A DNA stretch of 64,000 nt from Rhodanobacter sp. FDAARGOS 1247 (lineage in GTDB: Bacteria > Pseudomonadota > Gammaproteobacteria > Xanthomonadales > Rhodanobacteraceae): positions 1,736,001 through 1,800,000 of the forward strand of contig NZ_CP069535.1 of NCBI RefSeq assembly GCF_016889805.1. Reading direction: 5' to 3'. The position numbers and the translations under genes were made by a program. Under the pieces are notes generated by a model. It was not told the origin of the DNA. It was given only the letters and a program-made list of their open reading frames with translations, and ran no database searches. This document shows, piece by piece, positions 1,565 to 8,477 of the stretch (its first letter is position 1; the number at the start of each line of letters is the position of its first letter).

Positions 1565-1591
1565 AACGGCTCCCGGCTAGGGAGCCGTTTT
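1565..1591 (+). terminator. Intrinsic terminator of fabV
   Basis: Perfect 10-bp stem AACGGCTCCC / GGGAGCCGTT with a 5-nt loop (GGCTA), followed by further T residues. It lies 63 nt after the fabV stop and directly before the next start, so the accessory genes downstream need their own promoter. Confidence 0.85.
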
Positions 1592-1603: not shown

Positions 1604-2518
1604 ATGAAATTCTGGTTGGGCGTTACTGATAACCGATGGTATGAATTCGTCTGCCGTCAAGCGTTTGATGAAGTCAACTTCTGGCAGCCCTCGGCGCGTG
1701 CGCCGTTTACCAATCTTCCTCCAGGTACTCCATTCTTCTTCAAGTTGAAACGCCCGAACAACCACATTGTTGGCGGAGGGTTTTTCTCGCACTTCACGAC
1801 GCTGCCGCTCTCCCAGGCGTGGGATTTTTTTGGTGAAGAGAACGGGGCTTCTTCGTTTCGCCACTTCGCCGAACTGATCGCATCCAATGCGCATGTAGCA
1901 GCAAGTCCGGAACGTCAGATAGGATGCACGGTCGTTTCGAACGTTTTCTATTTGCCAAGGGAAGCGTGGATTCCCGTCGAAGGCTTGTTCCCCAAACCCA
2001 TAATGGTTGGTAAACAATACGACTCGTCCGAGGAGTTGGGTGCTGCCCTTTGGCAACGGATTCAGTCAGTTTTGCCCTTGGCTGCGTCTGCACAACAGGT
2101 TGGGGAGGATGCGCCGCGTTACGGTACTGAATTTCTTCAGAGAGCGAGGCTTGGCCAAGGAGCGTTCAGGACGCTTGTGCTGGATGCATATGAACGTCGC
2201 TGCGCATTGACGGGCGAATCTACACTGCCCGTGTTGGAGGCTGCGCATATCCGACCGTATGCCGATCAAGGGCGGCATTTGATCTCCAACGGACTACTTT
2301 TGCGCTCGGATTTTCACAAGCTGTTTGACCTTGGCTTGGTCACGGTCCAACCGGACTATCGCATTCGTATCAGCTCAAGGATTCGCGACCAATACTTCAA
2401 TGGCAAGGCGTACTACCGTCTGGACGGGCAGGAACTTGCTCGGCTGCCAGAGCGGCCCATTGACCAGCCGGATCCGGAGGCTTTGCGTTGGCACAACGAG
2501 AACAGGTTCATGCCATGA
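1604..2518 (+). CDS. PUA/EVE-like plus HNH endonuclease, probable modification-dependent restriction enzyme
   Basis: 304-aa protein with two parts. Residues 1-130 (starting MKFWLGVTDNRWYEFV, with PGTPFFFKLK near 40-49) look like a PUA-superfamily (EVE/ASCH-like) fold, which in related enzymes reads modified bases. Residues 195-250 form an HNH nuclease: Cys200, AAHIRPY with His215, Asn229 and His238. PUA-like-HNH fusions are known modification-dependent (type IV) restriction enzymes; assignment here is by pattern, without alignment. GGGGG lies 7-12 nt before the ATG. Its stop overlaps the next start by ATGA, coupling it to the MazG-type enzyme. GC is lower than in fabV, suggesting transfer. 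No partner methylase is present. Confidence 0.72.
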   Translation: MKFWLGVTDNRWYEFVCRQAFDEVNFWQPSARAPFTNLPPGTPFFFKLKRPNNHIVGGGFFSHFTTLPLSQAWDFFGEENGASSFRHFAELIASNAHVAASPERQIGCTVVSNVFYLPREAWIPVEGLFPKPIMVGKQYDSSEELGAALWQRIQSVLPLAASAQQVGEDAPRYGTEFLQRARLGQGAFRTLVLDAYERRCALTGESTLPVLEAAHIRPYADQGRHLISNGLLLRSDFHKLFDLGLVTVQPDYRIRISSRIRDQYFNGKAYYRLDGQELARLPERPIDQPDPEALRWHNENRFMP

Positions 2519-2865
2519 GTATTTTGAATGACGCTTCACTGAGGCAGTCCGTGTTGGATTTCAGATCCGCTCGTGATTGGGAGCAATTCCATACTCTGCG
2601 AACGCTCTCTACTGCATTGGCAGTAGAAGCTGCTGAACTCGCGGAGATTACCCAGTGGACTCCAGATTCTGATCTGGCCAAGCGAGCAATCGAAGCCCGC
2701 GACAAGATCGAGGAGGAGGTTGCCGACCTCTGCATTCTTTTGACCTATCTTATCCACGATATGGCGATCGATGTGGAGGACGTTGTTCGACGAAAACTGG
2801 CGATAAATGGCGCGAAATACCCGGTAGATCGCTTCAAGGGCTCATCTCGCAAATACAACGAATGA
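2515..2865 (+). CDS. MazG-type nucleotide pyrophosphohydrolase (dCTPase/RS21-C6-like)
   Basis: 116-aa all-alpha MazG-fold enzyme expected to hydrolyse a dNTP to dNMP and pyrophosphate. Metal-binding motif ExxE...ExxD is intact: E38/E41 in EAAELAE and E68/D71 in EEEVAD. The N-terminal DFRSARDWEQFHTLR and the C-terminal KLAINGAKYPVDR resemble the dCTP pyrophosphatase DCTPP1/RS21-C6 group more than house-keeping MazG. An ATG at 2515 overlapping the nuclease stop (ATGA) is chosen over 2488, which would overlap 31 bp. The shared operon suggests it acts with the HNH nuclease, perhaps on modified or viral nucleotides; that is inference. Its TGA stop is the first triplet of a tandem repeat. Confidence 0.82.
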   Translation: MSILNDASLRQSVLDFRSARDWEQFHTLRTLSTALAVEAAELAEITQWTPDSDLAKRAIEARDKIEEEVADLCILLTYLIHDMAIDVEDVVRRKLAINGAKYPVDRFKGSSRKYNE

Positions 2866-2988: not shown

Positions 2989-3834
2989 ATGCTAGGTCTT
3001 GACTTGCCACCGTCGCTGCTGGCTTTATGGGAAAGCCTCGTCGGCTTCCTAAACTCCACATTTATTAGCGCATTCTTATCAGCGCTTGCTGGTGCCGGAT
3101 TCGGCGCATGGGGAGCTCAGAGAATTACCGAGCGATCTGCTCGCGCTAAAGATTTGCTCGAAGCGCTTAGACAGGCAAATGCAATTGTTGTCTTAGCCTC
3201 AACTATTGCCAATCAGGCGCTTTCGTTAAAGAAGCAGCATGTAAAACCCCTGTCAGATAGATACTTTAGTGATCGCGAAATTGCAAAGGTAACAAACGAT
3301 AACCTGCTTAACGGCGCTCCGGCGCAGACTGTTACCTTACAAGCGGAGCTCAGGAAGATGACTCCGCTGACACTTCCAATCGAAGCGTTGAAGAGTCTCA
3401 CGTTCTCTGCGCAACTTATGCCGGGCAGGGCACTCGCATTGGTCTCTATGATTGAACAGTCGGCCGCAGAGCTTACGCGCGCAGTTGAGGCCAGATCGGA
3501 GATGATCGACAATTTTCACGACGCTAACCTGCCTCCCCACATTTTCTGCCAAGATTACTATGGCCTCGAACGCAAGGACGGTAATGTAAATGCTATGTAT
3601 CACGACACAATGATTGCTGTTGCTCAATACACTAATGACATAGCTTTTTTCTCTGCGGAATTGGCAGAAGAGTTGCAAGCGCATGGGGCCCGCGTGAGGG
3701 AAAAACTGCTTAAGCTACGGAGTGATGTACCGAAAGCAAGCACAGTGGACTTTTCTGGACCAATCGCATCAGGGTTGCTGCCTGCAAGAGAGGACTATGT
3801 CTCTTGGCTTTCTGGGTTTGGGTCGCGGCATTAG
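2989..3834 (+). CDS. Unknown membrane-anchored protein
   Basis: 281-aa protein of unrecognised family. One hydrophobic N-terminal segment (about residues 15-45, FISAFLSALAGAGFGAWGA) is followed by a mostly helical, soluble remainder with a long Ala/Leu/Glu-rich stretch near residues 50-75 and 215-245. This suggests a single-span anchor with a cytoplasmic helical domain. Codon use and GC are clearly lower than in the core genes, pointing to recent transfer. It stands alone between attC-like sequences at 2959 and 3949, as expected of an integron cassette. A weak AGGTAG precedes the ATG. No function can be assigned. Confidence 0.75.
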   Translation: MLGLDLPPSLLALWESLVGFLNSTFISAFLSALAGAGFGAWGAQRITERSARAKDLLEALRQANAIVVLASTIANQALSLKKQHVKPLSDRYFSDREIAKVTNDNLLNGAPAQTVTLQAELRKMTPLTLPIEALKSLTFSAQLMPGRALALVSMIEQSAAELTRAVEARSEMIDNFHDANLPPHIFCQDYYGLERKDGNVNAMYHDTMIAVAQYTNDIAFFSAELAEELQAHGARVREKLLKLRSDVPKASTVDFSGPIASGLLPAREDYVSWLSGFGSRH

Positions 3835-5165: not shown

Positions 5166-5561
5166 ATGACCGACCGCCAAGCCACCTGCCGCTGCGGAAA
5201 CCTCGTCGTCCACGCGCGCGGCGAGCCGGTCCGCGTCTCCATCTGCCATTGCCTGGCCTGCCAGAAGCGCACGGGCAGCGCGTTCGGGGTGCAGGCGCGG
5301 TTTCCGCTGGATGCGGTGACGATTGAGGGGCCGAGCAGGGAGTACGCCCAGGCCGGCGACAGCGGCAGCGTCGCCCGGTTCCGGTTTTGCGGCAACTGCG
5401 GCGCCACCGTGTGCTGGGAGGCCGATGGGGTGCCGGGATTTGTCACCGTGGCGGTCGGCGCCTTTGCCGATCCACATTTTCCCCAGCCGCAGGTGTCGGT
5501 GTACGAGGAGCGTCAGCACGCCTGGCTGCGTCTGCCGGAGGACATGGAGCATTTCGATTGA
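5166..5561 (+). CDS. GFA/CENP-V family zinc protein
   Basis: 131-aa protein of the glutathione-dependent formaldehyde-activating (GFA, DUF636) fold. Zinc-binding cysteines are in place: CRCGN near residue 8, SICHCLACQKRTGS near 26-39, and FCGNCGATVCW near 74-84. Family members are small cytoplasmic carbon-sulfur lyase-like enzymes or are uncharacterised; the reaction cannot be deduced. It returns to the high GC of the core genome, so it probably lies outside the AT-rich island. Monocistronic. Confidence 0.88.
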   Translation: MTDRQATCRCGNLVVHARGEPVRVSICHCLACQKRTGSAFGVQARFPLDAVTIEGPSREYAQAGDSGSVARFRFCGNCGATVCWEADGVPGFVTVAVGAFADPHFPQPQVSVYEERQHAWLRLPEDMEHFD

Positions 5562-5686: not shown

Positions 5687-5980
5687 ATGTTCAGGGCGAT
5701 CGCGCCGCAATGGCTGACCAACGATCTTGGCATCGAAGTATCGAGCAGGGATCGCGACACCATGCAGTACAGGGATGGTGACCACATGTTGCTCCTGCAT
5801 TGCGACACCATTGCGGACGGAGACGGACGTTTCGGAGCCGCCATTCTCTTGCCGCACGATGTCCGCTGGCAGCCACCGTTCGAAGATGAGCGGATCGACA
5901 GCTTCGTCCGGACGAAGATTGCAAGGAATCTGCTGGATGCCTGGGGCGCGGTCGACTATTGGGTGACCATCGAGAGCTGA
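5687..5980 (+). CDS. 97-aa unknown protein, paralog 1
   Basis: Acidic cytoplasmic protein with no recognised domain. It is 73/97 identical to the product of 8184-8477, over full length without gaps, and the 20-odd bases before each start (ATCAAGGA, then TTCACATG or CTCACATG) are also conserved, so the pair arose by duplication. Best-conserved parts are LTNDLG, YRDGDH, GAAILLPHD and LLDAWGAVDY. AAGGAAGG gives a strong ribosome-binding site. Small tandem paralogs are often immunity or stress proteins; nothing here proves this. Confidence 0.75.
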   Translation: MFRAIAPQWLTNDLGIEVSSRDRDTMQYRDGDHMLLLHCDTIADGDGRFGAAILLPHDVRWQPPFEDERIDSFVRTKIARNLLDAWGAVDYWVTIES

Positions 5981-8048: not shown

Positions 8049-8183
8049 TCCGGGAAGCTTCGAGAAAACGCGACAGAGCGTTTTCCGACGGGTCTGCCCG
8101 ATCGGCTTCCCGTACTGTTCCAGCACCGACAGGTCTCGGGACGGATCGCTTCCGACATGCCCGCATCATCAAGGACGGCTCAC

Positions 8184-8477
8184 ATGTTCAGGGCAACCGC
8201 ACCGCAATGCTTGACCAACGATCTTGGCGTCGAGGTATCCCGGAAGGATCGTTTCACCATGGAGTATCGGGATGGCGATCATGTCCTGTCGTTGTACTGT
8301 GATCCGATTGCATCGGGGGACGGACGCTCCGGGGCAGCCATTCTTCTGCCGCACGATGCCCACTGGCAGCCACCGTTCGAACAGGAGCGGATCGACAGCT
8401 TCGCTAGGGCAAGGATTGAAAAGGACCTGCTGGATGCCTGGGGTGCCGTCGATTACCGGGTATCCATCGAGAGCTGA
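8184..8477 (+). CDS. 97-aa unknown protein, paralog 2
   Basis: Full-length, ungapped paralog of the product of 5687-5980 (75% identity), with 24 scattered substitutions and no frameshift, so both copies appear to be kept by selection. ATG at 8184 is chosen over 8157 by matching its twin. It follows the 270-aa gene by 135 nt and is probably co-transcribed. Function unknown. Confidence 0.75.
   Translation: MFRATAPQCLTNDLGVEVSRKDRFTMEYRDGDHVLSLYCDPIASGDGRSGAAILLPHDAHWQPPFEQERIDSFARARIEKDLLDAWGAVDYRVSIES

Follow-up and report, generated by a model that had tools for sequence, protein, structure and literature searches.

A PUA-HNH nuclease and a DCTPP1-like MazG protein form a conserved two-gene unit with a probable role in defence

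Introduction

Why would the gene of a putative modification-dependent nuclease overlap that of a nucleotide pyrophosphohydrolase? The question is raised by a pair of genes in a 64,000-nucleotide stretch of contig NZ_CP069535.1 of Rhodanobacter sp. FDAARGOS 1247 (hereafter the window; genome G000 in our sample), for which a first-pass annotation had proposed that one enzyme destroys DNA carrying modified cytosine while the other removes the modified nucleotide from the pool. Type IV nucleases are well known, as are pool-cleaning enzymes, and Lutz et al. 2019 is said to have screened for such modification-dependent enzymes. Here we consider the layout and predicted folds of the two proteins, the extent and history of their pairing, the genes found around them, and the explanations that the evidence allows.

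Results

Layout of the gene pair

The pair and its immediate surroundings comprise the following features of the window.

1565..1591, + strand: possible terminator/attenuator hairpin with a 10-bp stem and a short U tail, the enoyl-reductase gene on one side and the nuclease start on the other
1604..2518, + strand: PUA-superfamily (ASCH/EVE-like) and HNH nuclease, 304 aa, ATG to TGA
1604..2083, + strand: predicted PUA-superfamily sensor domain, about residues 1-160
2201..2350, + strand: HNH (PF13391) part, about residues 200-249, with invariant H215, N229 and H238
2515..2518, + strand: ATGA overlap of the MazG start and the nuclease stop
2515..2865, + strand: MazG-fold dCTP-pyrophosphatase-like protein, 116 aa, ATG at 2515 and stop at 2863-2865

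The two ORFs (1604-2518 and 2515-2865) overlap by ATGA just as first annotated, and the same 4-nt start/stop overlap recurs in the relatives L031, L032, L036 and L115. We place the MazG start at ATG 2515 rather than at the head of a longer TTG-started ORF because the N-termini of aligned relatives support it. The genome holds a single match to the nuclease, and one MazG-like match above the family cut-off with a second one below it. Upstream of the nuclease lies an enoyl-reductase gene (ORF 254-1501, PF12241), presumably fabV. The intervening hairpin has a z score of -3.33, with none of 200 shuffled sequences equally stable, and is not among the reports of a consensus scan. Behind the MazG gene, a 281-aa ORF (2989-3834) gave no family match over cut-off and only weak PADLOC matches.

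Two features of the downstream sequence may be recorded separately. A 13-base unit is repeated exactly three times in tandem at 2863-2901, its first copy overlapping the MazG stop codon. Two small ORFs (5687-5980 and 8157-8477) resemble each other and look like paralogues, and in G801 a stretch related to them stands shortly behind that genome's enoyl-reductase gene.

Predicted fold and active site of the nuclease

The HNH domain of the nuclease was recognized by PF13391 (E 2.1e-11, residues 200-248), and the rest of the protein had no other Pfam match at E up to 1. The HNH motif is intact, with H215, N229 and H238 invariant in 41/41 aligned rows. The N-terminus takes a PUA-superfamily fold in the predicted structure, as the first-pass annotation had supposed. 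A whole-chain Foldseek search with the predicted structure placed VcaM4I (6yex, E 5.8e-9) at the top, and ASCH and TagI come next among the fold matches. Among single-domain folds, ASCH scored above EVE, and the list of fold matches included an ac4C amidohydrolase and m6A-reading YTH domains; at the sequence level, the N-terminal domain had no match among solved structures at E up to 1.

VcaM4I is an EVE-HNH modification-dependent endonuclease (6yex; PMC7897488) and, like our nuclease, consists of a PUA-superfamily sensor followed by an HNH domain. The HNH parts of the two proteins align by sequence (profile E 2.2e-12), whereas the N-terminal domains do not, that of our nuclease being nearer to ASCH in fold, and the domains are placed differently relative to one another (whole-chain rmsd about 20 A). 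The VcaM4I paper assigns P24, W82 and Y130 to the pocket for flipped 5mC/5hmC (PMC7897488); the profile alignment spans the HNH part only and not the region of this pocket. The string 'MazG' occurs nowhere in the text of that paper.

The model for phosphorothioate-dependent HNH restriction enzymes (NF045808) scored 69.9 bits, short of the NCBI cut-off of 180, and matched residues 174-302 only. In PHROGs, the HNH part of the nuclease matches only families without function, the other matches being to pyrophosphatase families.

A DCTPP1-like MazG protein with clade-specific residues

The second protein matches PF12643 (MazG-like). Its best solved matches by sequence are the archaeal pyrophosphatase 4qgp and RS21-C6/dCTPP1, and by fold it also matches dCTPP1, the 5-Me-dCMP complex 6sqw being among the structures found. 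All aligned relatives retain the metal motif E38-x-x-E41 ... E68-x-x-D71 unchanged, and sequence, fold and motif bear out the initial description of a MazG fold with ExxE...ExxD and RS21-C6/DCTPP1-like ends. We transferred DCTPP1 residue numbers to the MazG rows through sequence alignment to the solved matches, leaving out L120, here as in the 77-row MazG tree, because its extracted piece was 21% filled. The equivalents of DCTPP1 W47, E63, E66, W73, E95 and D98 are invariant in 77/77 MazG rows, including the base-stacking Trp47 and Trp73 (W22 and W48 in our protein).

The most conspicuous difference concerns DCTPP1 Tyr102, which corresponds to position 75 and is placed against the deoxyribose by a docking study (PMC4491611). 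This residue is Leu in all 22 rows of the clade of MazGs encoded behind the nuclease, and Tyr in 51/51 unlinked rows and in 4/4 rows of the other linked group. Besides this change, six further positions are clade-specific by our script's criterion, and together they point to a changed substrate. The equivalent of His38 (position 13) is L, V, A or I in 22/22 clade rows; it is also not His in at least 49/51 unlinked rows, and is therefore no speciality of the clade. DCTPP1 itself hydrolyses dCTP (PMC4491611, PMC7162842), with a possible house-cleaning function (PMC7162842). With DCTPP1/RS21-C6, our MazG protein shares the fold, the metal site, both stacking tryptophans, the WEQFH motif and a similar C-terminal end; it differs in the clade-wide Leu and in having its gene paired with a nuclease. 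By residue comparison, the clade-wide replacement of Tyr102 suggests that the nuclease-linked MazG is not simply an ordinary dCTPase and, with His38 not kept, its substrate may differ from a dCTP-like one.

Conservation of the pair

We gathered relatives from a related-locus scan of genome contigs (37 loci in one scan), from whole-genome searches, which added more, and from plasmid and viral collections. L002 and L116 share their genome with L034 and were dropped from the counts. L118 coincides in position with L035 and was counted once among the 45 full-length nuclease relatives, both rows being kept among the 22 clade rows and the 77 MazG rows. Six loci with a split nuclease, a contig-end cut or an unsure start (L031, L061, L063, L065, L069, L070) stand outside the 45, three of which (L031, L061, L063) do have a MazG gene behind the nuclease; L066 and L067 match the HNH part only.

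A clustered MazG gene was found in 23 of the 45 relatives, confirming the conserved co-occurrence of the two genes across genomes that the first-pass annotation had proposed to look for. It lies downstream on the same strand in 19 genomes and upstream in 4, in one of which a helicase gene stands between MazG and nuclease; in the remaining 22 the two genes are not clustered. Where MazG follows the nuclease, the spacing ranges from a 4-nt overlap to 202 nt and is mostly below 20 nt (start codons are unsure in L052 and L054). By their labels, the linked genomes belong to Pseudomonadota, Bacteroidota, Gemmatimonadota, Actinomycetota and Nitrospinota; these labels may be wrong in places since many of these genomes are metagenome bins. 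Among 21 loci that match the nuclease only partly, mostly in the HNH part (L010-L030), none had MazG within flanks of about 1.5 kb. In the close relative L031 (346-1331), the nuclease gene is split in two frames and the MazG gene is intact.

For the reverse comparison, we searched 398 genomes of the order for MazG irrespective of the nuclease, and 75 had DCTPP1-type matches. In each of the six closest (E <1e-25: G000, G774, G116, G723, G760, G736) the nuclease gene lies immediately upstream of MazG, and none of 24 other MazG loci of the order (L120-L143) has it within 1.5-kb flanks. Since 23 of 45 nucleases have a clustered MazG gene and only 75 of 398 order genomes had a DCTPP1-type MazG, the adjacency is not due to chance. 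Across 398 genomes of the phylum, our own included, 2 have the nuclease (E up to 1e-40) and 50 have MazG (E up to 1e-12). Two kinds of unlinked MazG locus stand out. At L100 (248-1845), the gene directly behind MazG encodes another HNH protein, of 408 aa and related in the HNH part alone, possibly a further nuclease-MazG pair. At L080, L083, L085, L090, L092, L102 and L104, MazG precedes a conserved protein (311-324 aa, CNxxCxHCH motif) that looks radical-SAM-like to the eye.

Viral contigs contained eight nuclease loci, the best of which has MazG directly behind it and is also the best viral MazG match; MazG was not found in the flanks examined of the other seven. Phage records gave 9 nuclease matches, none covering more than 80%, and 10 MazG matches. 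On plasmids, the nuclease matched 298 records, 4 of them over at least 80% of its length, and a profile search found no MazG at these four near-full-length loci (L068-L071). An obligate toxin-antitoxin pair was rejected on the count of 22 full-length nucleases out of 45 without a clustered MazG; because the nuclease so often occurs without it, MazG looks like a helper rather than an obligate antidote.

Phylogenetic history

In a tree of 77 MazG rows, the 22 rows of MazGs encoded behind the nuclease group together in a single clade (support 100/98). On the nuclease tree (46 rows from 45 genomes), five changes are required to explain where MazG lies behind the nuclease, and placing all such rows in one clade is rejected (p 2e-6). 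The simplest account would be an old pair with frequent loss of MazG, but the same MazG lineage may instead have been gained repeatedly. The viral loci (L197-L217) are in no tree.

Independent recruitment of a second MazG lineage in L005-L007 and L106 is not established: the MazG tree needs 3 changes, but a single origin for all linked MazG rows is compatible with the data (AU p 0.443 for 77 rows, 0.095 for 50 rows). The MazG gene that precedes the nuclease in L005-L007 encodes a protein that, on visual comparison, looks like the MazG found on the chromosomes of related genomes; in these loci the nuclease may therefore just have landed beside a resident MazG.

Genomic surroundings

Neighbours were scanned in selected relatives rather than as a census, and those of the nuclease include HsdM (L036, L110, L112), an Abi_2 protein, a YhcG nuclease, a type ISP enzyme, ResIII-type helicases, a SIR2-fused pAgo and a type IV enzyme; housekeeping-looking genes also occur beside some relatives.

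Within the genus, the enoyl-reductase gene is present in 28 of 31 genomes, and in 26 of these 28 the alignment to the window ends at the end of this gene (L166 has too little sequence beyond it to tell), resuming in L148 and L149 beyond window position 5400. It continues through the nuclease-MazG pair only in G000 and G797. In G774, from another sample, the pair also stands at the enoyl-reductase site. The pair is accessory in this genus.

Methyltransferases and the mark that is read

A nuclease that cut all DNA containing 5mC should be found in hosts without C5 methyltransferases. We found no such avoidance: C5 methyltransferases occur in 6 of 15 nuclease genomes (including G797, whose nuclease gene is split in the assembly) and in 42 of 101 genomes of the order (including at least 4 of the 15, namely G000, G044, G051 and G058). 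G000 itself has none. General cutting of 5mC is thus disfavoured, and because nuclease hosts are not short of C5 methyltransferases, a narrower sequence context, 5hmC or another mark is more likely.

Parallel systems

In genome G035 (L106), one strand carries MazG, an SLFN-g3 helicase and the nuclease in this order, and the opposite strand carries a Nudix gene and a type IV gene that face them. We take the type IV enzymes of the L106 kind to be SauUSI-like and use that label for them; the L106 protein matches the PADLOC model mREase_IV. The five genes form a dense island at L106 1567-8262. Seven of the closest SauUSI-like loci were inspected (L106, L172, L181, L182, L183, L186, L187), and in all except L186 a Nudix gene lies directly upstream of the SauUSI-like gene, which is in pieces in L187 and has an internal stop in L172. 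In L183 and L187, both plasmids, a MazG gene lies directly downstream of it. On the first of these, from Lactiplantibacillus plantarum, Nudix, SauUSI-like enzyme, MazG and an SLFN-g3 helicase with a GIY-YIG domain stand in a row (L183 2571-7966). Ten more distant SauUSI-like loci (L173-L180, L184, L185) have no such Nudix match in the stretches examined. The MutT-type genes beside SauUSI-like enzymes matched several NCBIfam Nudix models, none over cut-off.

MutT homologues beside SauUSI homologues appear in the Fig. 9 legend of Bell et al. (PMC7641849), and according to PMC10742078, 5-methyl-dCTP is a substrate of both E. coli Orf135 and mycobacterial MutT2, the latter also accepting further dNTPs, dCTP among them. 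As that legend has it, and as in our pair, a type IV enzyme adjoins a nucleotide pyrophosphohydrolase, but the nuclease (PLD-helicase-DUF3427) and the hydrolase fold (Nudix) are unrelated to ours, with MazG added in the two plasmids. DCTPP1-type MazGs have a further recurrent neighbourhood, since SLFN-g3 (PF09848) helicase ORFs adjoin 15 of 53 unlinked MazG loci; there the partner is a helicase and not a PUA-HNH nuclease. Seen together, the SauUSI/Nudix loci, the L106 island and the SLFN-g3 loci make the combination of a modified-DNA nuclease with a nucleotide pyrophosphohydrolase look like a recurring theme.

Discussion

The nuclease and the MazG protein are encoded in a real and conserved unit, whose role is probably defensive. 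The explanation we favour, with a probability of about 0.5, is a two-gene unit in which a type IV-restriction-like defence nuclease is accompanied by its own modified-dCTP pyrophosphatase, with mechanism and substrates that we infer. Judging by its fold and by VcaM4I, the PUA-type domain would detect modified bases of incoming DNA, probably by base flipping, and on the same grounds the HNH domain would cut the modified DNA. MazG would hydrolyse the matching modified dNTP, most likely a C5-modified dCTP, to the monophosphate. Such hydrolysis could starve the phage of its special building block, and could also keep modified nucleotides out of host DNA, where the nuclease would then attack. The defence unit draws support from the conserved pairing, the predicted folds, the intact catalytic residues, the dedicated MazG clade with its pocket change and the defence-type neighbours of several relatives. 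Against it stand the 22 of 45 nucleases and 7 of 8 viral loci without MazG, C5 methyltransferases as frequent as elsewhere, the changes at Tyr102 and His38, the lack of any sequence match (E up to 1) between the N-terminal domain and solved structures, and the unproven recruitment of a second MazG lineage. The first-pass interpretation of a nuclease with a pool enzyme is accordingly supported in part, by the conserved pairing across phyla and the predicted PUA fold; its modified-cytosine target stays a conjecture, and the methyltransferase counts go indirectly against general cutting of 5mC.

Several rival readings overlap in part, and their odds do not sum to 1. The N-terminal domain might read another mark, such as phosphorothioate or a modified purine, or might read RNA, with MazG removing a different nucleotide; ASCH as the nearest single-domain fold, the ac4C amidohydrolase and YTH domains in its match list, the Leu at the Tyr102 position and the undepleted C5 methyltransferases would all suit this. 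We nevertheless consider it rather unlikely, since the phosphorothioate model matched the HNH part only and below its cut-off, the best whole-chain match is a 5mC/5hmC enzyme, and the base-stacking tryptophans of MazG are invariant. Alternatively, MazG might contribute nothing direct to defence and serve only to prevent modified nucleotides, whether set free when DNA is cut or synthesised by the cell itself, from entering the host genome. A helper of this sort would show the asymmetry that we see, in which clade MazGs are always nuclease-linked when approached from the MazG side (6/6) and nucleases lack MazG in 22 of 45 cases, and it would agree with the house-cleaning function considered for DCTPP1 (PMC7162842); however, were auto-cleavage a serious risk, those 22 nucleases would hardly manage without a clustered MazG, and we regard self-protection by itself as unlikely.

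It is improbable, in our judgement, that MazG acts abortively, destroying the ordinary dCTP pool after infection with the nuclease as a second effector. Models for such nucleotide depletion are known in the dCTP deaminase and dGTPase defences. The metal-binding residues of MazG are intact and DCTPP1 does hydrolyse dCTP (PMC4491611, PMC7162842), but the two-gene unit contains no evident sensor or regulator, the ORF behind it giving weak matches only, the pocket Tyr102 is changed, and steady translation from a shared mRNA would be expected to drain dCTP constantly. That MazG is a general house-cleaning gene travelling in defence islands with no functional link to the nuclease would fit the SLFN-g3 helicase ORFs beside other DCTPP1-type MazGs (15 of 53 unlinked loci) and the chromosomal look of the MazG in L005-L007. 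A mere passenger would scarcely account for the gene overlaps and short gaps, or for a dedicated clade, present in several phyla, whose specific residues are fixed and whose members are linked in every case sampled; we give this reading little credence.

The pair is not described in the titles and abstract beginnings of the literature searched, a search whose coverage excluded most subscription journals. The earlier statement that no described system has exactly this pair thus held within that literature, but a parallel is already present in the legend that sets MutT beside SauUSI homologues (PMC7641849). We tentatively extend the defence unit to a rule of type IV immunity, possible rather than probable at present: modified-DNA nucleases would recurrently carry a private pool enzyme of one of two unrelated folds, MazG with PUA-HNH nucleases and Nudix/MutT, sometimes with MazG in addition, with SauUSI-like enzymes, and the MazG of the PUA-HNH lineage would be a dedicated enzyme whose new specificity (Tyr102 to Leu) is for the phage's modified nucleotide. 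This rule is stated nowhere in the literature searched.

If MazG is indeed dedicated to the nuclease in this way, its substrate would reveal the mark that the nuclease reads. At 116 aa, the MazG protein makes the idea testable, as its preferred nucleotide should name the base recognised by the nuclease. If real, a conserved unit acting against a modified base at two levels, DNA and the nucleotide pool, would be a new layer of anti-phage defence, and would help to explain how a cell with such a nuclease is spared self-cleavage.
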